From positions 1 through 26,132 of the IMG/VR virus record IMGVR_UViG_3300010885_041446: a stretch of DNA of 26,132 nucleotides; one strand, 5' to 3'. This document shows, piece by piece, positions 914-26,132 of the stretch. This DNA is from a virus. The notes beneath the pieces were generated by a model that saw only the letters and a program-made list of their open reading frames with translations, ran no database searches and was not told where the DNA came from. Position 1 is the stretch's first letter, and every line of letters starts with the position of its first letter. Made by a program: the position numbers and the translations under genes.

Positions 914-1147
914 TTACCCCTTTAATTCGCTGTCTGATAATCTTGCTAATTCATTGTAGCCATCAACAAACAGTTTGCCATCTTTATAAATTTGCGGAAC
1001 CGACCGATGGCCTTGGCCTACTATAAACTCGTGTGCTTCTATGTTTGTGTCTACATTAATTACCTCAAAGTTAACTCCTTTATTAGTAAGTAATATTTTA
1101 GTTTTTTGACATAATGGACAATTTTCTTTTGAATATACTGTTATCAT
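914..1147 (-). CDS. Glutaredoxin (NrdC-like)
   Basis: The 77-residue protein has a compact thioredoxin fold: strand MITVYSK, redox motif C10-P-L-C13, the conserved V50-P51 cis-proline turn, and a G-Y pair near residue 63. Length fits small phage or bacterial glutaredoxins. T4 NrdC reduces the phage ribonucleotide reductase, and nrdA and nrdB lie a few kb away, so this is the likely electron donor for that enzyme. The active site is CPLC rather than the more common CPYC or CPFC. An AAGG-type ribosome-binding site sits ahead of the ATG. The gene is divergent from the desaturase at 1201, sharing a 53-bp intergenic region with it. Confidence 0.85.
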   Translation of the reverse strand: MITVYSKENCPLCQKTKILLTNKGVNFEVINVDTNIEAHEFIVGQGHRSVPQIYKDGKLFVDGYNELARLSDSELKG

Positions 1148-1168
1148 TTTTTACCTTTTTTGTTATTT

Positions 1169-1177
1169 TTTATACCA
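1169..1177 (-). promoter_or_regulatory. Possible extended -10 promoter for glutaredoxin operon
   Basis: Read on the minus strand this is TGGTATAAA, an extended -10 element about 20 nt ahead of the glutaredoxin ATG. I see no good -35 hexamer at the right spacing, so support is weak. It lies back to back with the plus-strand late promoter at 1188-1195. Confidence 0.3.
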
Positions 1178-1187
1178 CGTTTTAAGC

Positions 1188-1195
1188 TATAAATA
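1188..1195 (+). promoter_or_regulatory. T4-type late promoter ahead of desaturase 1
   Basis: The sequence is exactly TATAAATA, the T4 late promoter box recognised with gp55. It ends 5 nt before the ATG at 1201, so transcription would be expected to start at or next to the start codon and give a leaderless message. No ribosome-binding site could fit between the two. Confidence 0.6.
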
Positions 1196-1200
1196 TAGTT

Positions 1201-2004
1201 ATGACTTTATTACAACCCTTTAAAAATATTTCCAACTTTAACAAAGTTAGGATAGTTCAAGCAGTACTCTATTTAATCACAATATATACCTTGCTTTTAT
1301 TTTTTAATACAACACTATTTTTATTAGGATTAGTTTTATCCTGGTTTTTCTTTGCTTTTGGTGTTTCTATAAGTCTACACAAATATTCAAGTCATAGATC
1401 ATTTGAGCCTAAAAATTTACTAATTAAACATTTTTTACTTTGGTGCGGAACGCAAACCACGCTAGGTACAAGTTTAGAGTTTGCAGCTGGACATAGAACT
1501 CATCACAAACATAGTGACACTGATCAAGATCCATTTGCATTAACTTCATCCTTTAAACACAATTTAAAGTTATGGTTTTTATGGTTTGACACTAGTTTAG
1601 TTAATCCAACTATTATTAAAGATCTTACTAGAGACAGTACTCATAAATTTTATCACAGAAACTATTGGAAGATTTGGGCAATATACCCTGTGGTATTGTT
1701 AATAATTAATCCTTTATATGTGTCTTATTTCTTTGCATTACCAGTTGTTTATTGTTTACTAGGTATGAGTTGGGTAACTGTGATTGCACATAGCCCAACT
1801 CTGCAAAAGTTTTTTATTGGTTCAAAAACTAGTACACAAGATCTAAGTTGGAACAGCGTATTTTTTACTGTGTTATTTGCCGGTGAGGGCTATCATGAAA
1901 TACATCATCAATTTCCTGGAATCAGTGACTACGGAATAAAAAATAACAGATTAGATGTTTCAGGAAAACTTATTAACGTATTGGGTAATCCTAACACTGT
2001 TTAA
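1201..2004 (+). CDS. Fatty-acid desaturase (acyl-CoA/acyl-lipid type), paralogue 1
   Basis: The 267-residue integral membrane protein carries the three histidine boxes of di-iron fatty-acid desaturases: H60-KYSS-H65, H98-RT-H101-H102 and H232-EI-H235-H236. H197 may be a further ligand. Hydrophobic segments near residues 20-58 and 160-197 are the likely membrane hairpins. The family uses O2 and electrons from ferredoxin or cytochrome b5 to place a double bond in acyl chains. In a phage it would alter host membrane lipids, or lipid signals, during infection. It is one of only two plus-strand genes and is driven by its own late-type promoter. Its stop overlaps the stop of the convergent paralogue by 4 bp. 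Residues 59-72 match paralogue 2 almost base for base (see the repeat entries). The substrate and double-bond position cannot be read from sequence. Confidence 0.9.
   Translation: MTLLQPFKNISNFNKVRIVQAVLYLITIYTLLLFFNTTLFLLGLVLSWFFFAFGVSISLHKYSSHRSFEPKNLLIKHFLLWCGTQTTLGTSLEFAAGHRTHHKHSDTDQDPFALTSSFKHNLKLWFLWFDTSLVNPTIIKDLTRDSTHKFYHRNYWKIWAIYPVVLLIINPLYVSYFFALPVVYCLLGMSWVTVIAHSPTLQKFFIGSKTSTQDLSWNSVFFTVLFAGEGYHEIHHQFPGISDYGIKNNRLDVSGKLINVLGNPNTV
1375..1415 (+). repeat. Inverted repeat, left arm (inside desaturase 1)
   Basis: This 41-bp block matches the reverse complement of 2623-2663 with a single mismatch (position 1407, G against A). It encodes the first histidine box and the SFEPK stretch after it, starting at codon 59. 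Flanking bases diverge at once. The two arms are inverted and enclose about 1.2 kb. Confidence 0.9.
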
Positions 2005-2834
2005 GTATGAAAATGTTGATCAAACTCTGTCTGATAATTTTTTCCAATTAGTTTAATCAACCACCAACCAAAGTCCCAATCTTTTTTATTAAACTTATTA
2101 TGTGCGGCTCCTGGGAGTGCGTGGTGATTATTATGATTACCATCTCCGGGTACAAAAATTGCCGCAAGACGACTATTAAATGTTAAGTCTTGACTATCAA
2201 AATTAGTATAACCTATTAATTTATGTAACCATGTTTTATGAGCCAATACTGTAATATAACTAATAGCAGTAAACGCATATACTATAGGCACAAAATAAAA
2301 ATAACCTGCTACCTTAGGTGAAATTAAAAACAATAGTAAGAACCAGCCCAAGTTAATTTTAAAATAATTTTGATGAAAAAATTTGTGCTCTCTATCAATA
2401 CTTAAATCTTTAACGGTTCTTGGATTAATATGATATGTTGGAAAATAATAAAACCATAATCTAATACCACGCCATATACCGCCACCATTTAAGTTAGGAC
2501 TATGTGGATCTTCTTCTTTGTCTGAAAACTTGTGATGCTTTCTATGAGTACACGCCCAACTAATATTGCTACCTAAAGAAAGTACTGTACTTGAAAATAA
2601 CATTAATACTTTCCAGAAAAGGTTTTTAGGTTCAAATGATCTATGACTTGAATATTTGTGTAGTCCGCATGCTGCGCCCATTAAAAATACTAGCCAGGAA
2701 AAAACAAGAGATGCGACTAGCCACACCCAATCAAAGTATACAAACATAGTTACTAGAAAACCTGCATATCCAAATGCCTGTAACAGTTTAACTCTGCTAT
2801 CTAGTGGAAAGAGTTTATAAAACCAATTAAACAT
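2001..2834 (-). CDS. Fatty-acid desaturase, paralogue 2
   Basis: The 277-residue product has the same three histidine boxes as its convergent neighbour: H59-KYSS-H64, H97-RK-H100-H101 and H234-NN-H237-H238. It also shares a VKDLS..HKFFHQNYFKI-like stretch around residues 141-160. The two proteins clearly belong to one subfamily but differ over most of their length. The ATG overlaps the nrdB stop (TAATG), so translation is coupled to nrdB and expression follows the nrdA-nrdB operon, unlike paralogue 1, which has its own late-type promoter. Box 3 is DGNHNNHH here and GYHEIHH in paralogue 1, which may mean different substrates or redox partners. Like nrdB it is a di-iron enzyme. Confidence 0.9.
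   Translation of the reverse strand: MFNWFYKLFPLDSRVKLLQAFGYAGFLVTMFVYFDWVWLVASLVFSWLVFLMGAACGLHKYSSHRSFEPKNLFWKVLMLFSSTVLSLGSNISWACTHRKHHKFSDKEEDPHSPNLNGGGIWRGIRLWFYYFPTYHINPRTVKDLSIDREHKFFHQNYFKINLGWFLLLFLISPKVAGYFYFVPIVYAFTAISYITVLAHKTWLHKLIGYTNFDSQDLTFNSRLAAIFVPGDGNHNNHHALPGAAHNKFNKKDWDFGWWLIKLIGKNYQTEFDQHFHT
2623..2663 (-). repeat. Inverted repeat, right arm (inside desaturase 2)
   Basis: This is the partner of 1375-1415, with 40 of 41 bases identical on opposite strands. On the minus strand it begins at codon 58 of paralogue 2, in the same reading phase as the other arm. Ser, Arg and Leu codons with six-fold choice are the same in both copies, which protein conservation alone would not require. 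Confidence 0.9.
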
Positions 2835-3961
2835 TATAATGAAAATCCTTTAAATGTGTCGTCATCAATGTCATGATGCACTGCGCCAACTGTATAACTA
2901 CTTATTTCAGTTTCCTGAGGGGCTACTTGCACATCACTGCCAGCAATCCATTTTTGTGTCCATGGAAGAGGATTTGACCCACCTTTATACGGACTATCCA
3001 AACCTAATGCAGTCATACGCTTATGTGCAATCCACTCAACGTAATCAGTCAACAATCTTTGATTTAAGCCAATCATTGAACCATCTTTAAATAGATATGT
3101 AGCCCACTCGGACTCTTGTTTGACTGCACTAACAAACATTGTAGTAACTTCTTCTTTGCATTCTTTTTCAATCTTGATATAATCTTTATCGTCTTTGAGT
3201 AATAGTTTCAACATTGTTTGTGTACCAGCTAAATGTAAATTTTCATCACGACAAATTAATTTAATAATTTTTGCATTACCTTCCATTTTTTTAAGTTCAG
3301 CAAATGCCCAGGAACAAGCAAAACTAACATAAAAGCGAACACCTTCTAATATATTAACAGAACTTAAACATAGCCATAGTCGTTTTTTAAGCTCGTATTG
3401 ATTAACAATAACCTCTTGACCGTTAACAGTGTGCGTACCAACACCAAGATAATTATACATAGTAGTATAGTTTATTAGTTCATCGTAGTAGTAACTAATA
3501 TCATGAGCGCAAGACATAATAGGCTCAATATCAGTTATTTCATCAAAAACTTTGCTAGGATCTGAATATATATTACGAATTATATGTGTATAGGATCTGG
3601 AATGTATTGTTTCATTAAATGCCCAAGTTTCAATCCAGGTTTCTAATTCAGGCAAACTTACTATTGGCAAAAACGCAATATTAGGACTACGTCCTTGCAC
3701 TGAGTCTAGTAGAATTTGACGTTTTAAATTACTTGTAAATATATGTTGCTCAAACGATGATAGATCTTTAAAATCTTTTGAGTCTCGAAAACAATCAACC
3801 TCTTCGGGTCTCCAGAAAAAACTTAATTGTTTGTCTGTTAATTTATCAAACTGTCTATACTTAAGAATATCATACCGTTGTAGGCCGTTGCCACCCTGGG
3901 GATCTAGAAAGGCTAGACTTTTTAGGTGGTTCATTTTCTTATTAAGATTTAATACTTTCAT
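2834..3961 (-). CDS. nrdB: Ribonucleotide reductase, class Ia, beta (small) subunit
   Basis: The 375-residue product (E. coli NrdB has 376) carries the full radical and di-iron site: D86 in [11 protein letters not shown]117 and H120 in [10 protein letters not shown], the radical tyrosine Y124, E207 in ILEGVRFY, and E240 and H243 in RDENLHLAG. The acidic, hydrophobic-ended tail (TFKGFSL) is the part expected to dock on NrdA. It generates the tyrosyl radical for dNTP synthesis in the cytoplasm. The ATG at 3961 has no clear ribosome-binding site and a second Met lies at residue 10, so the true start could be slightly internal. It follows nrdA by 12 bp and its stop overlaps the start of desaturase 2. 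Confidence 0.96.
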
Positions 3962-3973
3962 AGTTTTATTAGA

Positions 3974-6271
3974 TTAAAGCTTACAACTTTCGCAATCATC
4001 GTCGTCGTTTACTGATATTTCAACAGGACTTTCTATATCGCGATCGATGGCTATTTCCCCTTGGCCATCATTGGTATTATTATAATATAGTTGCTTTCCA
4101 CCATATTTATAAAATGATACTATATGTTTAATAAGTTCACTCATTGGTATTTTATCATCTTCATAAAACACTGGATTATATGAGGTGTTAACTGAAATGC
4201 CTTGATCGATATACTTCTGAAGAACAGCCATAATCTTTAAATATCCATCAGGGCTCTTTTGATCCCATAACAATTCATATTTATTTTTTAACCGTCTAAA
4301 CTCAGGCACTACTTGTTTTAGTGCGCCATGTTTACTTTGTTTAACCGAAATATAACTTCTGGGGGGCTCAATACCATTCGTACTGTTTGAAATTTGCGCA
4401 CTGGTCTCAGCTGGCATTAATGCCATTAGCGTTGAATTTCTAATACCTGTTTGTTTTAATTGTTCACGTAGGCCTGCCCAATCTACAAGGTCCTTGTGTG
4501 GTACTAAGTCATCTACATCTTTTTTATATGTGTCAACTGGTAATATTCCTAAATGATATTTTGTTTCATTGCTCTTAGGACAGGCACCAAATTCTATTGC
4601 TAAATCTGCACTAGCTTTAATTAAATAATAAGACCAATATTGCATCCATCTATCTATCTCGGGCAAACAACTTGGGTCACTGTAAGTGAAATCGTTTTTA
4701 GCTAACCAATAAGCAAAATTAATAATACCAATACCTAAAGGTCTGCGACTCTCTGTTGAGTTACGTGCAGCAATAACTGGATAATCTTGATAACTTAACA
4801 ATGCATCTAATCCACGCACTGCTAATGTACAGGCTCTTTGCATTTCTTCAGGTGTTCTAAATACTCCCCAATTAATTGCGCTAAGGGTACATAATGCAAT
4901 TTCGCCTAATGGATCATTTAAATCATTTAATGGTTTAGTGGGTAGATCAATCTCACAACATAAATTCGACATACGGATCGGTGCTAATTCAGGAATAAAT
5001 GCACCGTGACTATTAGCATGATCAACATTCATAAGATAAATTCGACCAGTATCTTTACGCTCTTGAATAAATTGACTAAACAAATCACTGGCTTTAATTT
5101 TTTTCTTACGAAGCTTTGTGTTACGTTCTGCTATTTCATAAAGTTCTTTAAATTTGTCGTTATTGCTAAAAAATGCGTCATATATTTCTGGAACGTCGTG
5201 GGGACTGAATAAAGTAATATCTCCACCGGATAGTAAACGTTCGTACATTGTTTTATTAAATTGAACACCATAATCCATATGGCGTACACGATTATCGTCA
5301 GTACCTTTATTATTTTTAAGTACCAACAAGTCTTCTACTTCTAAATGCCACAGTGGATAGTACAATGTAGCAGCACCATTTCGCACGCCACCTTGTGAGC
5401 ATGATCTTGTTGCCGCCTGGAATAATTTAAAAAAAGGAACAACCCCGGTATGATAAGCATCACCATTTCTAATAGGACTTTTGATAGCACGAATACTGCC
5501 TGCACCTATGCCAATGCCAGCTTTTTGACTCACATATCTAACAATAGAACTTGTGGCTGCATTAATAGAATCTAAACTGTCATGTACTTCAAGTAATACA
5601 CACGATGAAAATTGACGTTGTGCTGTTCTTACCCCGGCCATGACTGGAGTAGGTAATGATATCTGATGAGTTGATATTGCATCATAATAATCTTTAATCC
5701 AGGTTAATCTTGTTGCTGGTGGATACTTGCTAAACAATACTGCTGCAATTAATAGATAACAAACTTGAGGTGTTTCATATATCTGTTCCGTGACACGATT
5801 TTGCACAAGATACTTACCGCGAAATTGTTCCATTGCCACATACGTCAGAGTCTCATCACGGTCATGTTTAATAAAATTATTAATTAATTTCCACTCTTCT
5901 TCTGTGTATAGAACTAATAGACCAGGGTCATATAAACCCAAAAGAACATTCTTTTTAATAATATCAATGAGAGGGCCAGGAGTAAATGCACCGTAAACCA
6001 TTTTACGCAGGTGATATGTAATTAAGCGGCCGGCAACATATTGGTAATTAGGATTTTCTTCTGTAATTAAATCAGCACCCGACTTAATTAATGTTTCTTG
6101 AATATCTGCTGTTTTGATGCCGTTATAGAATTGAAGATGACTTTTAATTTCGAGCTCACTTGCTGAAACTCCTGTAATTCCTTCAGTTGCCCACATTACA
6201 ACTTTATGTAATTTATCAATATCTAAAGGTTCTTTACTTCCATTACGCTTAGTAACTAAAATTTCACTCAT
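3974..6271 (-). CDS. nrdA: Ribonucleotide reductase, class Ia, alpha (large) subunit
   Basis: The 765-residue product (E. coli NrdA has 761) begins with an ATP-cone region (residues 1 to about 95). It keeps the catalytic set: C224 in FSSCVLLE, N436, C438 and E440 in SNLCCEID, C461 in IALCTLS, and Y729-Y730 in KQLYYNNT for radical transfer. The C-terminal redox pair is C760-ES-C763, a CxxC, whereas E. coli has CxxxxC. That pair would be reduced by glutaredoxin, probably the one at 914-1147. No intein or intron is visible. A strong ribosome-binding site (AAGGTGA) lies 5 nt ahead of the ATG. The gene is 8 bp downstream of a small unknown gene; I did not find a clear promoter of its own. Confidence 0.97.
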   Translation of the reverse strand: MSEILVTKRNGSKEPLDIDKLHKVVMWATEGITGVSASELEIKSHLQFYNGIKTADIQETLIKSGADLITEENPNYQYVAGRLITYHLRKMVYGAFTPGPLIDIIKKNVLLGLYDPGLLVLYTEEEWKLINNFIKHDRDETLTYVAMEQFRGKYLVQNRVTEQIYETPQVCYLLIAAVLFSKYPPATRLTWIKDYYDAISTHQISLPTPVMAGVRTAQRQFSSCVLLEVHDSLDSINAATSSIVRYVSQKAGIGIGAGSIRAIKSPIRNGDAYHTGVVPFFKLFQAATRSCSQGGVRNGAATLYYPLWHLEVEDLLVLKNNKGTDDNRVRHMDYGVQFNKTMYERLLSGGDITLFSPHDVPEIYDAFFSNNDKFKELYEIAERNTKLRKKKIKASDLFSQFIQERKDTGRIYLMNVDHANSHGAFIPELAPIRMSNLCCEIDLPTKPLNDLNDPLGEIALCTLSAINWGVFRTPEEMQRACTLAVRGLDALLSYQDYPVIAARNSTESRRPLGIGIINFAYWLAKNDFTYSDPSCLPEIDRWMQYWSYYLIKASADLAIEFGACPKSNETKYHLGILPVDTYKKDVDDLVPHKDLVDWAGLREQLKQTGIRNSTLMALMPAETSAQISNSTNGIEPPRSYISVKQSKHGALKQVVPEFRRLKNKYELLWDQKSPDGYLKIMAVLQKYIDQGISVNTSYNPVFYEDDKIPMSELIKHIVSFYKYGGKQLYYNNTNDGQGEIAIDRDIESPVEISVNDDDDCESCKL

Positions 6272-9106: not shown

Positions 9107-9427
9107 TTAAACAGTAAAACTTTCTCCGCAACCGCATTCAGCTTTGGCATTGGGATTTTGGAATTCAAATCCTTCGTTAAGTCCTTTTTTGGCATAGTTG
9201 ATTTCCATACCCTGTAGATAAACTATATCTTTTTTATCAATTAATAAAGTAACACCACGTTCATCTATTTTAATATCATGCTCACGTACTTCATCAGCAA
9301 ATTCTAACACATAAGCAAAGCCACTACATCCAGCAGTGCGCACACCGATACGCATGCCAATACCATGACCGCGATTATATAATGCATCTTGCATGTGTTT
9401 AGCGGCTATTTCAGTTAAACTAATCAT
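9107..9427 (-). CDS. iscA: A-type iron-sulfur carrier (IscA/ErpA/SufA family)
   Basis: The 106-residue protein is a full-length A-type carrier with the three ligand cysteines: C34 in TAGCSGFAY, and C98 and C100 in AECGCGESF. These hold an Fe or Fe-S unit between scaffold and target apoprotein. The family is widespread and IscA, ErpA and SufA cannot be separated by motif alone; the symbol is chosen because iscU is in the same operon. The ATG overlaps the stop of the monooxygenase gene (ATGA), and AAAGGA lies about 11 nt upstream inside that gene. No cysteine desulfurase, ferredoxin or HscBA is present in the window, so the host must supply sulfur and chaperones. Confidence 0.93.
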   Translation of the reverse strand: MISLTEIAAKHMQDALYNRGHGIGMRIGVRTAGCSGFAYVLEFADEVREHDIKIDERGVTLLIDKKDIVYLQGMEINYAKKGLNEGFEFQNPNAKAECGCGESFTV

Positions 9428-10749
9428 TTAAATATCATTCCTTTTTTTAGATTACAAAATTTAAACACAATCCAATCTTTGTAGTAATTTTGATAATGTC
9501 TCCACGATCTACCAGGATATAATTCATTTGATCTAACAAGATAATTTGATATCATTGGCAAATTGAATGGTACACTATCTTTATCTAATATATACGGAGT
9601 ACATATACGAAGATTCTTTTTCTTCATATAATTTAGTACTCGAACAATATATCTGCTAATTAATTCACATCGTAATATCCAACTATGATTCACATAGCCA
9701 ACAGTTGCAGCTAAGTTAGGAATACCAGTAAACATTGTGCCTCGATAAAATATTGTATCATGAATATTAATTAATTTTCCATCGACTATTACAGTAACAC
9801 CGCCCATTAATTTTGTATTAATGCCTGTAGCAGTAACTACAATATCACTAAGCACAATTTGACCCGAAGTAAGTTTAATTCCATTATCAACATAACTATC
9901 TATTGTACTTGTTATTAGTTTTATTTTTCCACTGTCTACACATTCAAAAAATTCATTATCTACAGTGACACATACTCGTTGCTCCCATGGGTAATAATTG
10001 GGTTTATCGTATCTAGTTAATAATTTTTGGGCGGCTTCTGGATTATTTCGACAATATCGTAGAAATTTGAATCCTTCGTATATTTTTTTGTATCTAGAAC
10101 CAGTTTGTTGTTTGGGTGCGTTTACTATATACCCAGGGCTACGTTGAATTACTGTTATGGATTTTGCTTGTTTAGCAAGCTCAGGAGCCAACGTAACCAT
10201 AGTTGCGCCACTACCAATAATAGTAATGTCTTTATCTTTATAATCAAGTTCTTGCCAATGTTGTGGATGTACTATCTTGCCTGCATATCGAGCGGTATCT
10301 TTAATATCGGGGGTATGCGGATTTTCATAATTAAAATATCCAGCACACATTATAATAAAATGACAAGTGACCGTTGGTTGATTTTCTAACGTAATGTACC
10401 AGCGATCAGTTTTCCATTCTAATCCAGTCACTAAGTGATTAAATCGAATCTGCTGACTGATGTTATATTTTTCTGCTGTTTGTTTAATATAATTTTTAAT
10501 ATCGGCGCCATTAGCAATTTCATTTTGCCCAGGCCATGGATTAAATGTATATCCATAGGTATACATGTCAGAGTCGGATCTAACGCCAGGATATTTGAAT
10601 AGATCCCAGGTACCCCCTAAATCTTGTCGAGATTCTAATATAACAAAAGAATGCTCCGGGCAATCACGTTGCAAATAATACGCTGACTGAATTCCGGCCA
10701 GGCCGGCGCCAACTATTATAACATCGAAGTGTTCCATTTCTTTTGCCAC
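9424..10749 (-). CDS. Flavin-dependent monooxygenase, Baeyer-Villiger type
   Basis: The 441-residue product has an FAD-binding Rossmann motif (G14-A-G16-L-A-G19), the GGTWD segment at 45-49 followed by YPGVRSDSDMY, and a second NAD(P)H motif G179-S-G181. Between them lies a fingerprint of Baeyer-Villiger monooxygenases, Y155-A-G...H161...W165. Such enzymes use NADPH and O2 to insert oxygen into ketones, or oxidise N or S atoms. It is shorter than typical BVMOs of about 500 residues. The frame can start at GTG 10749 or at ATG 10737 (MEHFDVIIVGAG); the latter looks more natural, but neither has a clear ribosome-binding site. It is sandwiched between iscU and iscA and overlaps iscA by 4 bp, an unusual setting. 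The substrate is unknown. Confidence 0.85.
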   Translation of the reverse strand: MAKEMEHFDVIIVGAGLAGIQSAYYLQRDCPEHSFVILESRQDLGGTWDLFKYPGVRSDSDMYTYGYTFNPWPGQNEIANGADIKNYIKQTAEKYNISQQIRFNHLVTGLEWKTDRWYITLENQPTVTCHFIIMCAGYFNYENPHTPDIKDTARYAGKIVHPQHWQELDYKDKDITIIGSGATMVTLAPELAKQAKSITVIQRSPGYIVNAPKQQTGSRYKKIYEGFKFLRYCRNNPEAAQKLLTRYDKPNYYPWEQRVCVTVDNEFFECVDSGKIKLITSTIDSYVDNGIKLTSGQIVLSDIVVTATGINTKLMGGVTVIVDGKLINIHDTIFYRGTMFTGIPNLAATVGYVNHSWILRCELISRYIVRVLNYMKKKNLRICTPYILDKDSVPFNLPMISNYLVRSNELYPGRSWRHYQNYYKDWIVFKFCNLKKGMIFK

Positions 10750-10750
10750 A

Positions 10751-11134
10751 CTATTGGGTAATCTGCTTACTTTTGTAATCTGCTATAGCCGCACGTATAC
10801 TATCTTCTGCTAACACGCTGCAGTGAATTTTTACAGGAGGTAATGAAAGTTCTTCTGCGATGTGTGAATTTTTAATTGTTCCGGCTTCCTCTAGTGTTTT
10901 ACCTTTGAGCATGGTTGTTACCAATGAACTTGACGCAATCGCACTGCCACATCCATAGGCCTTAAACTTGGCATCAGTGATAATTCCATCATGTATTTCT
11001 ATCTGTAATTTCAGAACATCTCCACAAGCCGGGGCACCTACTAGGCCTGTGCCTACGTCTTTTGAGTTTTTATCTAAAATACCAACATTACGAGGGTGTT
11101 CGTAATGATCTAAAACTTGTTCTGAATAAGCCAT
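10751..11134 (-). CDS. iscU: Iron-sulfur cluster scaffold protein IscU
   Basis: The start MAYSEQVLDHYEHPRNVG is the classical IscU N-terminus, so I choose ATG 11134 (GGAGA at 11143-11147 is its ribosome-binding site) and not the TTG at 11149. The product is then 127 residues. Ligands are C37 (with D39), C62 and C105 (with H104), close to E. coli C37, C63 and C106. The segment L98-P-P-V-K102 is the HscA chaperone-recognition motif. IscU assembles 2Fe-2S clusters on sulfur from IscS and passes them on via HscA/HscB and A-type carriers. A phage copy that keeps both cluster ligands and chaperone site is probably functional and dependent on host IscS and HscA. It is the first gene of the operon and has a sigma70-type promoter. 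Confidence 0.95.
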   Translation of the reverse strand: MAYSEQVLDHYEHPRNVGILDKNSKDVGTGLVGAPACGDVLKLQIEIHDGIITDAKFKAYGCGSAIASSSLVTTMLKGKTLEEAGTIKNSHIAEELSLPPVKIHCSVLAEDSIRAAIADYKSKQITQ

Positions 11135-11161
11135 ATTATGGATCTCCAATAGTATAGTACT

Positions 11162-18511: not shown

Positions 18512-18540
18512 TTATGCGGGTATTGTTGAAACTATATCTT
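18502..18540 (-). repeat. 12-bp perfect inverted repeat around the in-frame stop
   Basis: The arms AAGATATAGTTT (18502-18513) and AAACTATATCTT (18529-18540) are exact reverse complements with a 15-nt loop. The TAA that breaks the radical SAM gene sits on the loop-stem border (18512-18514). No T-run follows, so it is not an ordinary terminator. Confidence 0.85.
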
Positions 18541-19228
18541 CAAGTAAAATTTCGTCTGTGGTTGCTGATTTAAATAATACTTTAAAATTAGTTTCTTTTG
18601 GCTTTCCTAACGTATGAGATAAATTTCCTTTTCGATCAAATACCGGTCCGGTGTCACGACCGTCATTTACTATTAAAAATTCTTTAAAACCCAACTTAAT
18701 AGATAATGCTCGGCAGTCAGCAAGTTGATGATTATTATGATCAAACTGAATCATTTTCCAAGTAGCTCGGCCTCCCGCTGATATAAATGTTTGAGCATTT
18801 TTAATTATTTTTTTCCAGTTTGTATCTTGCCTATATAAATGATGTGTGTCTTCAAGACCATCTAAGCAAAAAATAACCTGGGCATTAAGTTGCGCTAATT
18901 TAGTCCAAAATACTTTATTTCTTGCACTGCCGTTGGTACTAATTTGTATTACTAAGTTTTTATTAAGGTTGCGGAAATATTCAATGATATTAGTTGTATA
19001 AGGATTCATTATTGCATCGCCAAAATTTCCATTTATATAAACTGTGTTAAGTTGTTTAACAAATGAAGGTGAAAATATTTTTTTAATTTCAGCTAACGTT
19101 AAATTTTTTTCAGTATAGCCATGATTATGTGGATACCCATGAAAATTTCTTGGACACTTAGGGCAGCGAGCATTACATAGACTACTAACCTCTAAGTGAA
19201 TATGTTTAATTTCATCAATATTATACAT
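18512..19228 (-). CDS. Radical SAM protein, catalytic part (truncated by in-frame TAA)
   Basis: The 238-residue open frame has the radical SAM cluster motif C18-NAR-C22-PK-C25 near its start, preceded by IHLEVSSL. Later segments typical of the barrel are GNFGDAIMNP (residues about 68-77), ISTNGS (97-102) and FCLDGL (120-125). The family uses a 4Fe-4S cluster and S-adenosylmethionine to make a radical. SPASM members often modify peptides or other enzymes. The frame stops at TAA 18512-18514, yet the same frame continues into a clear SPASM-like region, so the ancestral protein was about 334 residues. It follows the helicase gene by 13 bp and is probably in the primase-helicase transcript. Whether the truncated form is active is unknown. 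Confidence 0.8.
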   Translation of the reverse strand: MYNIDEIKHIHLEVSSLCNARCPKCPRNFHGYPHNHGYTEKNLTLAEIKKIFSPSFVKQLNTVYINGNFGDAIMNPYTTNIIEYFRNLNKNLVIQISTNGSARNKVFWTKLAQLNAQVIFCLDGLEDTHHLYRQDTNWKKIIKNAQTFISAGGRATWKMIQFDHNNHQLADCRALSIKLGFKEFLIVNDGRDTGPVFDRKGNLSHTLGKPKETNFKVLFKSATTDEILLEDIVSTIPA

Positions 19229-19241
19229 TGATGTTGATGTC

Positions 19242-20651
19242 TTAACTTGACTTAATTTGATTTAACAAACTTTTTAGTTTTGCACTTTGAAAATCTGCGG
19301 CAACTTTGCCAGTGGGCTCGCTAGATTCTAATGACGTATCATTAAAACTTGAAGATGTTTTTATGGATGATAGTGTTGATAGAGTACTTGAATTATTGCT
19401 ATGATGTGCGGCCTGTTGTGATTCCTCACCAAGGTCAGAAATTCTTAATGTGTCAACATTAAATTCTAAATCAACTTTCATACCTACACCACTACTTGAC
19501 CGTGTCTTCATTAATTGAATTTGATAGCGGCCACGCTCACGCATTGCTCTACTAGTAAAGATACCAAATACGTTGTCTGCCGTATTAATTTTTGATAAGC
19601 CACCTGCAATATGACTGTGATCAAACTCAACTTCTTCTACAGCTGATCTATTTAACTGTGACGCAGTTACAAATAATACATCTAACTCGCGCGATAAATT
19701 ACGTAATTCTTCACTTACATATTTGTCTTTAACAAATAAATCATTTGGACTAACTTTAGCACTAACCGGCATTAATAAATCTAAATAATCTACTAATAAG
19801 AAGTCAACTTTTACTTTAGTTTGAATTTCTAACTCTTTTAAATATGCTCTAATGTCATTGACTGTGCTTTGTGCTGGGAGATACTTAATCCGTAAATTGC
19901 CAGCTTTTCTAGCTAATAATTTAACTTTCATTTCAACATTATCAATGTCTCTAAATATTTCCTTAGATGATGTATTTGTCATCATTGAATCCATGCGCAT
20001 TGATGCAAGGCCTTCACTTAATTCTAATGTCACATAAGCCCCACTAAGCCCAGCTTGCGCCCAATTTACTGCTAAATTTTGCATGAATAATGATTTGCCA
20101 CTACCCGATCCGCCTGCAAAAATGTTTAGTTCACCTCGATTAAATCCACCATACAATAATCGATCTAACGTTGGCCAACCTGTCGATAATTGTCCGTTAC
20201 TATTTTTAAGTGCCAATAATCTTGCTTTAGGGTCATCAAAATAGTCTGTGCCCATATCTTTAGTTAGACTTATCTGAACGGCATCTTTGATAAGTTTTTC
20301 TACTGGGTCATAGTTACCTTTTTCTAATAAATCCGCAGATTTAAGAATTGCACGTTCTAGTTCATAACGTCGTGTAAAACCTTCAAATTCTGATAGAAAC
20401 CAATCATAATGATGTTCACCAACATCTGGCACATGGTCTAATTTAAGTTTAGTAATTGCATATATCTGTTCAATTGTTGGTAGTGTTTTGAATTTATCAA
20501 CATGTTCCTGGATAAATCTAGCAGTGGGTTGCAACGTTCGATCAAAATTCTCTGGATTAAAGATATTTTGCACACGTATATAACTTGCTGAGTCTTGCAA
20601 CATCATCTCAAGTAATAGTTTTTGTAAATCGATTGAATAGTCTTTTGTCAT
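19242..20651 (-). CDS. Replicative DNA helicase (T4 gp41/DnaB-like)
   Basis: The 469-residue product has an N-terminal helical domain and a RecA-like core with Walker A G180-GSGSG-K186-S, catalytic-type E210 in VTLELSE, Walker B LLVD288YLDLL, an SQLNR motif around 336-340 and an arginine-finger region (RGRYQIQLMKTR). This is the hexameric helicase that unwinds the fork with primase. The C-terminal 65 residues are Ser/Thr-rich and look disordered, ending in a short basic helix, which may contact primase or loader. Three tandem AATAAAC repeats lie directly ahead of the ATG. It follows the primase by 46 bp. Confidence 0.93.
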   Translation of the reverse strand: MTKDYSIDLQKLLLEMMLQDSASYIRVQNIFNPENFDRTLQPTARFIQEHVDKFKTLPTIEQIYAITKLKLDHVPDVGEHHYDWFLSEFEGFTRRYELERAILKSADLLEKGNYDPVEKLIKDAVQISLTKDMGTDYFDDPKARLLALKNSNGQLSTGWPTLDRLLYGGFNRGELNIFAGGSGSGKSLFMQNLAVNWAQAGLSGAYVTLELSEGLASMRMDSMMTNTSSKEIFRDIDNVEMKVKLLARKAGNLRIKYLPAQSTVNDIRAYLKELEIQTKVKVDFLLVDYLDLLMPVSAKVSPNDLFVKDKYVSEELRNLSRELDVLFVTASQLNRSAVEEVEFDHSHIAGGLSKINTADNVFGIFTSRAMRERGRYQIQLMKTRSSSGVGMKVDLEFNVDTLRISDLGEESQQAAHHSNNSSTLSTLSSIKTSSSFNDTSLESSEPTGKVAADFQSAKLKSLLNQIKSS

Positions 20652-20697: not shown

Positions 20698-21663
20698 TTA
20701 TACATATAATTTCTTTTTTGCCATTTCAATTTTAATTTTACTAGACTCTTTATGTTGCATTATACTCATAAGTGTACCCACTAGACCATAATATAATACT
20801 GCATCATTAACATCTTTAATTGTTGGATCCCAGGGAGGGATACTCACACTCCAGCCTAGTTCAACAGCACGGTTAATAATAGTTACACCAGCGCGATCTC
20901 GATCAGGAACAACAATAATTTCTTTCTGTAAACTGTTGATCAATTGTGCTTGTTTATCATTAATAGTATTATGTAAAACTGCTAATCCATTGATAGACAA
21001 TGCGTCAAATACTCCTTCTACTACAATTGCCTGTGTCCAATGCTCTTGTTGTAGGTCAACCCCAAACACATACCCGGGCTGTTGCTCATTTATATATTTT
21101 GGTTTTTTATCATCAAGATATCGTGAACTACTTCCAACAATCCGACCATCATAAGTATATGGTATAACGATACGATTAGATTGTCGACCTGTTTCATCAG
21201 GACTTACCATATATGGATATGCTCTATAATCTAATCCTCGACTGTTAAGATAATCAACAAACTGTTGATCCTCTGAAGATAATAACCGTAATTCTTTTGG
21301 CAACTCATAATCAGTGAATTCAATTTTAGTTATTTTTCGTAGGGCTCGTTCTTCTGCTACTGTATTAAGATCTTTATGTTTTAAACTATCTAAATTAATA
21401 ACAGAAATAGTTGAGCTATCAACCCCAAGCCAGGATAATAGTTTTCTAGCCTTAAATGATAATGTTCTGCCCAGCGTAAAACTTGCAGTGTATCCACAAT
21501 TAAAACAATGATAGCTCCAATTATTACCTTCAGGACGGATTCCGCCGCGCTGACGTGTGTCTGGTCGCTCACCAACATGTTGGCAACATACAGCATTAAA
21601 GCTCAACCATCCACTAGCTGTTCTTTTGTGTTTTTTAGGAAGTAAAGATACAATATCTAACAT
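20698..21663 (-). CDS. DNA primase (T4 gp61/DnaG-like)
   Basis: The 321-residue product opens with a zinc-binding domain (C26/C27, H29, C53-FN-C56) and a Toprim catalytic core: E216 in IVVEGVFDAL and D254-R-D256 in VVPDRDRAG. NRIVIPY (163-169) fits the RNA-polymerase subdomain. It makes RNA primers for lagging-strand synthesis and works with the helicase encoded next. A sigma70-like promoter lies directly upstream with only 6 nt from -10 to ATG, so the message is likely leaderless. Confidence 0.92.
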   Translation of the reverse strand: MLDIVSLLPKKHKRTASGWLSFNAVCCQHVGERPDTRQRGGIRPEGNNWSYHCFNCGYTASFTLGRTLSFKARKLLSWLGVDSSTISVINLDSLKHKDLNTVAEERALRKITKIEFTDYELPKELRLLSSEDQQFVDYLNSRGLDYRAYPYMVSPDETGRQSNRIVIPYTYDGRIVGSSSRYLDDKKPKYINEQQPGYVFGVDLQQEHWTQAIVVEGVFDALSINGLAVLHNTINDKQAQLINSLQKEIIVVPDRDRAGVTIINRAVELGWSVSIPPWDPTIKDVNDAVLYYGLVGTLMSIMQHKESSKIKIEMAKKKLYV

Positions 21664-23246: not shown

Positions 23247-23624
23247 ATGGCCAATGAGTTCTTTTATCAATTATCTGAAAAATACCCGTTTATAACGGTT
23301 TGTCTTTACGGCAACATAGAATACCTAGGTATTATTCAGAATCAAGACAGCACAGTGACTACTATGTATGACTTTGGCAAGATTATTAATCTTGAAGAAA
23401 AACAAATATTTTTAGAAAAAGCTAATATATGGTGGTGGGAGTCAAATCGTTCAATCCCAATTAATATCTTTTTACGGGAAGATTGGGCAATGTTTAAACC
23501 CTATTTACAGACATTTATCAACAAAGATCTACATATACTCTACGGACCTTGTACTAGTTTAAGTGATCTTACTAGAAAAAGAACAAAGAAAAAATCTATT
23601 ACCTTAGTTCGTCGATTTGACTAA
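23247..23624 (+). CDS. Plus-strand late protein of unknown function (125 aa)
   Basis: The 125-residue product has an aromatic core (ANIWWWESNRSIPINIFLRE, about 59-78), a GPCTSLSDL segment (100-108) and a very basic end (RKRTKKKSITLVRRFD). It is one of only two plus-strand genes and has an exact late promoter 37 nt upstream. Its 3' end overlaps the end of the convergent DnaE-like gene by 21 bp. I recognise no domain. The basic tail may bind nucleic acid. The style resembles uncharacterised proteins of other T4-type marine phages. Confidence 0.68.
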   Translation: MANEFFYQLSEKYPFITVCLYGNIEYLGIIQNQDSTVTTMYDFGKIINLEEKQIFLEKANIWWWESNRSIPINIFLREDWAMFKPYLQTFINKDLHILYGPCTSLSDLTRKRTKKKSITLVRRFD

Positions 23625-24185
23625 TTCATCAAGTAATTTCATATGTAGTGTCACCAACACTGCATAACTAATGGCATGACTTTGTTTAAAATAATAAATG
23701 TCATCATCGGGTTTAATCCATATTTCTTTAGCAATTTCATCCCACGGTCTTCCAACTAAATGTCGTTTTCCTGGACGTATTAATGCTAAAAACATTGCCA
23801 TGCGTGGAATAGAATCTATCACAAGCCCGTTCATAAGGTCCCCATGATTATTAATATGAATAAGCTGCTTGATAAATTCTTTATCATTTAATTGTTCCCA
23901 GGGCGTGGGCCTGCTTAATAAAGAATCATAATGTTGTTGATCTTTAATCATCTTATATACACTGACATTTAAAAAGTCTATCTTAAAATACCCTCTTTCT
24001 TCTGCTAGTTTATAGTCTAAACTTGAGGCATTTATCAAGGGATCATAAGGAATGTCAGTGACGTACACTCCCGAATTGTGTGGTCGGGGCTCATCGTTGT
24101 GCAGTTGCATTGCCGAGGTGTGACGTATTAGAGATAAAATATCTAATCGATCTGCAAAGTCTATATCAATATCTGTTTGTTTCAT
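23604..24185 (-). CDS. Very small DnaE-like (DNA polymerase III alpha-like) protein
   Basis: I start at ATG 24185 (MKQTDIDIDF) and not the upstream TTG, giving 193 residues. The protein shows, in order, what look like C-family polymerase motifs: D7 and D9 in DIDIDFADR (compare DFDVDF in DnaE), D70 in GYFKIDFLNV (compare VKFDFLGL), ALIRPGK (about 134-140; compare ALYRPGP), and K167-QSHAISYA (compare KSHAxAYA). All three catalytic aspartates of DnaE have a match, but the spacing between motifs is far shorter than in DnaE. It may be a reduced polymerase relative, a regulator, or a relic. It overlaps the zinc-finger gene start-to-stop, in an operon with the perfect sigma70 promoter at 25821-25849. 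Confidence 0.7.
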   Translation of the reverse strand: MKQTDIDIDFADRLDILSLIRHTSAMQLHNDEPRPHNSGVYVTDIPYDPLINASSLDYKLAEERGYFKIDFLNVSVYKMIKDQQHYDSLLSRPTPWEQLNDKEFIKQLIHINNHGDLMNGLVIDSIPRMAMFLALIRPGKRHLVGRPWDEIAKEIWIKPDDDIYYFKQSHAISYAVLVTLHMKLLDELVKSTN

Positions 24186-24187
24186 TA

Positions 24188-24877
24188 TTACCAACCTGCT
24201 TGTTTTAACATTTCTTTAACGTACTCGGTATCACCAGAATAATCTTTAAATATCTTTTGCCATTTATCTGGACTAATGTAATCAAAAATAATTGCTAACT
24301 GTTCAGGGTTCAAATTATTAAGAAACTCATGTCCTGATTCGCTGTTAAAAATAACCCACCCTGTAATTTTTCCACTGGTAATTAAGTGACAAATTTTATT
24401 TGGGTTCCCATAACGTAAAAAATGTTGGCTAGGGTTATTTGTTTCTTCGGACCATACAATACTTGCTTCTAAAGACCTTGCCATGGCGTCGCTGGAATTT
24501 TCTTTAAAAATATAAGTCTGAAGAAACTCTTCATAAAGCTTATCGCTTGCCCAATAGTCTATACGTTTATTATTTTTAAGTAACCATTCAGTATACCTAG
24601 CAGGATTAATTACCTTAGACGAAACACAATAGTTTCCATATTTAACAAATGCTTTGTAATACGGACTTGTAGCAAAGTCATCGTATGTTTTAAGTTTTGA
24701 ACTTCCTTGAGTTGTTTCATAGAACTTAAGAAAGTTTTGAAAGCCCATTCTATTAGCAGGATCGTCTTTGTGTTGGAATCGAATTTTTTGTTCGCACACA
24801 TGCACCGATAAAGTAGTTTCACGAGAAAACTCTCTCTGACAATACTTACATTTAAATTTTAAGTTCGAGTCCGGCAT
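24188..24877 (-). CDS. Zinc-finger protein of unknown function (229 aa)
   Basis: The 229-residue product starts with a CCHC-type zinc finger (C10-KY-C13 ... H26-V-C28; FKCKYCQREFSRETTLSVH) followed by an all-helical region rich in Tyr, Lys and Asn. The finger suggests DNA or RNA contact. It overlaps the gene upstream by 26 bp and runs to 2 bp before the ATG of the small DnaE-like gene. This neighbourhood, with uvsW nearby, points to replication or recombination, but no defined role can be given. Confidence 0.7.
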   Translation of the reverse strand: MPDSNLKFKCKYCQREFSRETTLSVHVCEQKIRFQHKDDPANRMGFQNFLKFYETTQGSSKLKTYDDFATSPYYKAFVKYGNYCVSSKVINPARYTEWLLKNNKRIDYWASDKLYEEFLQTYIFKENSSDAMARSLEASIVWSEETNNPSQHFLRYGNPNKICHLITSGKITGWVIFNSESGHEFLNNLNPEQLAIIFDYISPDKWQKIFKDYSGDTEYVKEMLKQAGW

Positions 24878-25862: not shown

Positions 25863-26132
25863 TTAATCCTGCCATTCAGTTTTTTCTACAGCAAATGGAT
25901 AATTAGCTTCTTTATAGAATTGCTTACGCTTGGTTAAATGTCGTTTGGCAAACTTACAGGTACTGGTTATATCCCATATTTGGACGAAGTCTTTGTCTTC
26001 CGCTTTGCGAATGCCACGCCCGATACTCTGGATGACCCGAACAAAGCTTTTGCCAGGTTCCAGCAACACAAGATTAAAAATTCTAGGAATATTAATACCA
26101 ACACTAGCAACCCCATAAGTGGCAACAATAAC
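25863..26132 (-). CDS. uvsW: UvsW-type DNA helicase, C-terminal part (runs off right edge)
   Basis: The last 89 residues of a superfamily 2 helicase are visible. TYGVASVGIN near the edge is motif V, and VIQSIGRGIRK is motif VI with its arginine fingers. A basic tail follows (KFAKRHLTKRKQFYKE), as in T4 UvsW. UvsW remodels recombination and stalled-fork structures and helps shift replication from origin- to recombination-driven start. The frame continues past 26132, so length and the Walker motifs cannot be checked. Confidence 0.82.
   Translation of the reverse strand, partial: VIVATYGVASVGINIPRIFNLVLLEPGKSFVRVIQSIGRGIRKAEDKDFVQIWDITSTCKFAKRHLTKRKQFYKEANYPFAVEKTEWQD

Follow-up and report, generated by a model that had tools for sequence, protein, structure and literature searches.

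A minimal form of the DNA polymerase III (Pol III) alpha subunit has been described in silico in group 2.2 jumbo phages. It is split into an N-terminal protein that binds NTP and a C-terminal one that binds Mg and template; their genes lie far apart, the phages also have a family B polymerase (PolB), and the split form possibly serves one strand or repair (Iyer et al. 2021, PMC7824862). A 172-residue "truncated" alpha subunit and a DnaQ-type epsilon subunit appear in the paper on CBB (PMC5259590), and alpha and epsilon subunits were noted in that on Atu_ph07 (PMC6102473). A literature search found no experimental study of a split minimal Pol III.

The DNA analysed here, referred to as the window, is a virus record of the IMG/VR type with 26,132 bases. 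An ORF of 193 residues at 23604-24185 had been put forward in an original prediction made from the sequence; the ORF exists, but it reads on the minus strand only, from an ATG at 24185 to a stop ending at 23604. Its product is termed the C-half below, as it corresponds to the C-terminal half of the split protein (Table 1). The gene is located in a replication module between helicase and primase genes, in the order end of a helicase gene, three genes of unknown function, C-half, small convergent gene, one conserved gene, GDSL-like gene, primase and DnaB-type helicase. The same order is displayed by six cultured reference phages, namely Klebsiella phage RaK2, Pseudomonas phage PA5oct, Agrobacterium phage Atu_ph07, Xanthomonas phage XaC1, Sinorhizobium phage Phosso and a Vibrio phage. 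The interrupted helicase is of the UvsW type by position, uvsW being found at the equivalent place in RaK2. Only 2 nt separate the C-half start from the stop of the upstream gene, whose product has a weakly C2H2 zinc-finger-like N-terminus. At its 3' end, the C-half gene is overlapped by 21 nt of the convergent gene, an equivalent of which is annotated on the opposite strand in all six reference phages and overlaps in five of them.

Table 1. Features of the window around the C-half gene
Feature	Position	Strand	Evidence or remark
C-terminal half of split minimal Pol III alpha (PHROG 11778)	23604..24185	-	PHROG, hhalign, AF2, structural matches, invariance
C-half key residues: D5/D7/D9, H36, K68, D70, R137-P138, K167/H170			
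Upstream gene, same operon, 229 aa, PHROG 11058	24188..24877	-	context only
Small convergent gene, 125 aa, PHROG 11637	23247..23624	+	part of syntenic block
DNA primase, DnaG/gp61-type, PHROG 47	20698..21663	-	order as in reference phages
DnaB-like replicative helicase, PHROG 19	19242..20651	-	order as in reference phages
Helicase gene, C-terminal end, cut by window end	25863..26132	-	PHROG 9690/16 DNA helicase

Other parts of the window carry genes of different kinds. A radical-SAM-like protein (18512-19228, minus strand; PF04055 below the curated cut-off) adjoins the replicative helicase. Two adjoining genes of convergent orientation encode members of the fatty acid desaturase family (PF00487; 1201-2834), which is unusual for a phage. 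An iron-sulphur assembly row (9107-11149) consists of an IscU-like NifU_N protein, an A-type Fe-S carrier and an FMO-like flavoprotein, and NrdA, NrdB and glutaredoxin (914-6271) are encoded near it. A PAAR-motif protein (PF05488; 318-605, minus strand) is probably a tail spike tip.

Homology of the C-half to DnaE is evident from profile comparison. The window protein matches PHROG 11778 ("DNA polymerase") with an E value of 3.2e-58; because this match merely names the family, a direct test against DnaE was made. When an alignment of the C-half family (52 homologues) was compared with nine DnaE proteins by hhalign, the match had a probability of 96, an E value of 4.8e-9 and a score of 73, whereas the best of 60 column-shuffled alignments reached a score of 28.9 and an E value of 0.009, and the reversed alignment a score of 22. 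The resemblance exceeds chance, and the DnaE-like order of motifs, previously matched by eye, is borne out. A search of the PDB with the C-half profile (hmmsearch) returned Pol III alpha chains only, up to an E value of 10; it serves only as a specificity check, because none of these chains is individually significant or has an E value below 0.33. Neither Pfam nor NCBIfam recognises the C-half alone, and a single C-half sequence found no match in the PDB with phmmer. The relation to DnaE is visible only through family profiles and structure.

Four of the conserved blocks in the C-half had been recognised earlier: DIDIDF (residues 5-10), FKIDFLN (67-73), IRPGK (136-140) and FKQSHAISYA (166-175). 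A fifth, HNSGVYV (36-42), had been missed and matches DnaE HAGGVV. In E. coli DnaE the corresponding blocks are PDFDVDF (400-406), HAGGVV (511-516), KFDFL (from 553), RPGP (from 639) and KSH (from 758). The alignment equates D5 with D401, D7 with D403, D9 with D405 and D70 with D555. D401, D403 and D555 are the catalytic triad of the E. coli enzyme. The original prediction was right that all three catalytic aspartates have counterparts but had assigned them to D7, D9 and D70; with PDFDVDF at 400-406 they are D5, D7 and D70.

Structure prediction gives the same picture. An AlphaFold2 model of the C-half has a pLDDT of 91.9 and a pTM of 0.83, and its 10 best Foldseek matches are all Pol III alpha. 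After re-scoring of the Foldseek candidates by VIA-align, the first 15 rows belong without exception to Pol III alpha or PolC (Z 6.3-9.8), most of them aligned over 187-190 of the 193 residues, which in E. coli DnaE corresponds to about 399-781; the best unrelated chain has a Z of 3.3 over 45 residues. The two checks proposed with the original prediction, profile-profile search and structure prediction, thus both lead to the DnaE/PolC palm. Family profile and predicted model show the window protein to be a true C-family (DnaE/PolC) palm of very small size, and the fold match implies that D5, D7 and D70 should cluster in space.

Because the C-half begins at the first catalytic strand, it is without the GRGS phosphate-binding part of the palm. 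This motif is absent from the C-half chain and in relatives is encoded by a separate protein, the N-half. The second small gene was found with PF07733 in all six reference genomes; its product (PHROG 11127) is a protein of about 172 residues with the motif WG(V/L)GRGSS, ending in YDLDxxEFLK. An N-half profile aligns with DnaE 318-395 in hhalign (E value 3.5e-12), and in an N-half model with a pLDDT of 88, residues 79-173 are placed on E. coli 279-393 with a Z of about 10-12, the first 78 residues being outside the placement. Together, the halves tile E. coli DnaE as 279-393 plus 399-781, with the break between 393 and 399. When a fused form was sought, every N-half ORF found stopped within a few residues of the EFLK-like motif, and the N-half ends showed no trace of an intein. 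In isolates the two genes are about 15 to 180 kb apart (in RaK2, NC_019526, the N-half gene lies at 148852-149367 and the C-half gene at 115150-115788), and both halves were present within one locus in none of the loci first examined. The minimal nucleotidyltransferase suggested earlier is not supported as a stand-alone enzyme, since in relatives a second gene encodes the GRGS half of the palm that this protein lacks.

The two genes travel together. In a search of 50,697 phage records, the C-half was found in 63 and the N-half in 63; among the 60 matches listed for each search, 59 records are common to both, the two exceptions being a 109-kb partial record and a record that may be among the remaining matches. 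Of the IMG/VR contigs matched by the N-half, seven measure 200 kb or more, and the C-half is present in every one of them. A scan of genome contigs for the C-half gave five matches, all MAG contigs, which are interpreted as phage DNA assigned to bacterial or archaeal bins. The longest, the 335-kb contig PBPT01000016.1, is filed under Neomarinimicrobiota, bears both halves and is probably a jumbo phage genome, so that, with IMG/VR and MAG contigs taken together, all eight contigs of 200 kb or more have both halves. Four further MAG contigs besides this one carry the C-half. PolB is present in all six reference phages, PolA (family A) in none. The N-half was not found within the 26-kb window, probably since the window is a fragment of a genome. 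Nor was it found in the contigs closest to the window (the largest 152 and 112 kb), an absence that is uninformative because all are fragments of at most 152 kb and the halves can be as far apart as noted above for isolates.

The residues expected to matter for catalysis are conserved. D5, D7, D9, H36, K68, D70, R137 and H170 are invariant in 79 C-half sequences (61 distinct), K167 is present in 78 of the 79, and GRGSS is invariant in 48 N-halves. The C-half is under purifying selection (median pairwise dN/dS 0.117 over 115 pairs). Its family is abundant, with 476 relatives in one scan of viral contigs, and uniform, the relatives being about 190 residues long with the same break point. The window protein is at most 48.9% identical to that of any phage of the isolate collection and 63% identical to the closest viral contig. 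A degenerate relic of a formerly complete DnaE, one of the fates first envisaged for this gene, would account for the several-fold reduction in size, PolB having presumably taken over. However, the low dN/dS, the number of relatives and their uniform length and break point largely refute this reading, which is also disfavoured by the invariant catalytic residues in both halves and the near-complete co-occurrence of the two genes; it is highly improbable.

The same observations weigh against a decoy or inhibitor that imitates part of DnaE and blocks the host replicase, which had also been considered at the outset. Jumbo phages often interfere with host replication, and the C-half is a fragment of a host-type replicase, both of which fit such a role. 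A decoy, however, could do without an intact metal site and without a second half inherited alongside it, and invariant catalytic residues in both halves, a dN/dS around 0.12 and near-complete gene co-occurrence are what is found. Moreover, the gene is part of the conserved primase-helicase module and not among early host-takeover genes, the phages that carry the C-half have hosts from many genera, and no beta- or tau-binding part remains to compete for. A decoy is thus very unlikely.

The preferred reading, a catalytic module shared by two chains, has to accommodate the extent of what has been lost. As had been anticipated, this is not an ordinary full-length polymerase: the window protein has 193 residues and is without PHP, thumb, beta-binding and C-terminal domains. 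Compared with E. coli DnaE, even the pair of halves is without the PHP domain, the thumb, the fingers segment with LRRAMG (708-713), the beta- and tau-binding parts and all that follows about 781. The distance from DIDIDF to HNSG is about 26 residues versus about 105, including the thumb, in E. coli, and that from RPGK to KQSH about 30 versus about 117. In the absence of the LRRAMG segment, dNTP binding must go differently or not at all. Loss of the thumb and of much of the fingers, in phages that already have a complete PolB, is what would be expected if the halves formed a pseudo-polymerase, an inactive regulator or scaffold that binds primer-template or replisome parts without synthesis. 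On the other hand, a dead enzyme needs none of the metal aspartates, GRGSS, K68, R137, K167 and H170, all of which vary little or not at all among very diverse phages, and an inactive protein is regarded as unlikely.

Activity of another kind has also to be weighed. A core without a thumb resembles small nucleotidyltransferases of the pol-beta fold, a group with many members that are not polymerases. The Pol III palm could by this analogy have become a template-independent or non-DNA nucleotidyltransferase, modifying for example ends, nucleotides or protein. This is a somewhat weaker candidate than an inactive scaffold, as the gene stands among replication genes and the protein keeps RPGK and KQSHA outside the metal site, motifs assigned to the template-binding part by Iyer et al. 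(PMC7824862). Both the inactive scaffold and the alternative nucleotidyltransferase overlap in part with the preferred reading.

In the mechanism proposed here, jumbo phages of the RaK2, PA5oct and Atu_ph07 kind divide a minimal C-family (DnaE-type) DNA polymerase catalytic module between two proteins, and the C-half would be its C-terminal part, which binds metal and template. Since related phages encode the other half far off in the genome, the two proteins probably join into one small enzyme. The N-half would supply the GRGSS (phosphate-binding) part of the palm, and the halves may bind each other to rebuild a single pol-beta-type active site in which D5, D7 and D70 hold two metals and the GRGSS loop of the N-half holds the dNTP phosphates. 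With no thumb, PHP, beta-clamp- or tau-binding part, the enzyme should be a distributive nucleotidyltransferase. Its task, the least certain step of the proposal, would most likely be to fill short gaps or ends, alongside PolB, during repair or recombination linked to replication. Taken together, the C-half is probably one half of a heterodimeric, distributive pol-beta-fold nucleotidyltransferase that carries out gap or end synthesis beside the PolB replicase. A stronger version is more tentative: the pair may be an active, thumbless, two-chain C-family polymerase beside a family B replicase, the smallest known of its kind and with a task unlike that of any cellular DnaE, for example the filling of gaps or ends when replication is driven by recombination.

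If active, such a pair would represent the palm of a replicative polymerase cut to its core and shared between two genes, beside a T4-like PolB. It would show how much of Pol III catalysis can dispense with, and would put to the test the proposal of Iyer et al. (PMC7824862) that such forms are models for the ancestral bacterial replicase.

The E. coli enzyme is one chain of 1,160 residues, whereas the phage pair consists of two chains of 193 and about 172 residues. Its likeness to DnaE/PolC lies in the palm, with counterparts of D401, D403 and D555 and the HAGG, KFDFL, RPGP and KSHA blocks in order, and it differs from the bacterial proteins in being without the PHP, thumb, LRRAMG fingers segment, beta-binding, OB and tau-binding parts. 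In cyanobacteria, two separate genes likewise encode DnaE, the break there being made by a split intein. The phage break, in contrast, separates E. coli residues 393 and 399 within the palm, and the N-halves stop immediately behind the EFLK-like motif, free of any intein sequence.

The closest system is the split Pol III of Iyer et al. To its published description, the present analysis adds the exact break point, the structural tiling of both halves, selection estimates, a much broader sampling in which both half-sites prove invariant, and a quantified co-occurrence. The window protein differs as a new sequence whose own N-half is outside the 26-kb fragment or absent. Its relatives share with the described system the two-gene layout, the distant location of the genes, the domain content and the company of PolB, and the window protein is a direct homologue of the described C-half (PHROG 11778, with PHROG 11127 as the N-half), in the same neighbouring gene order.
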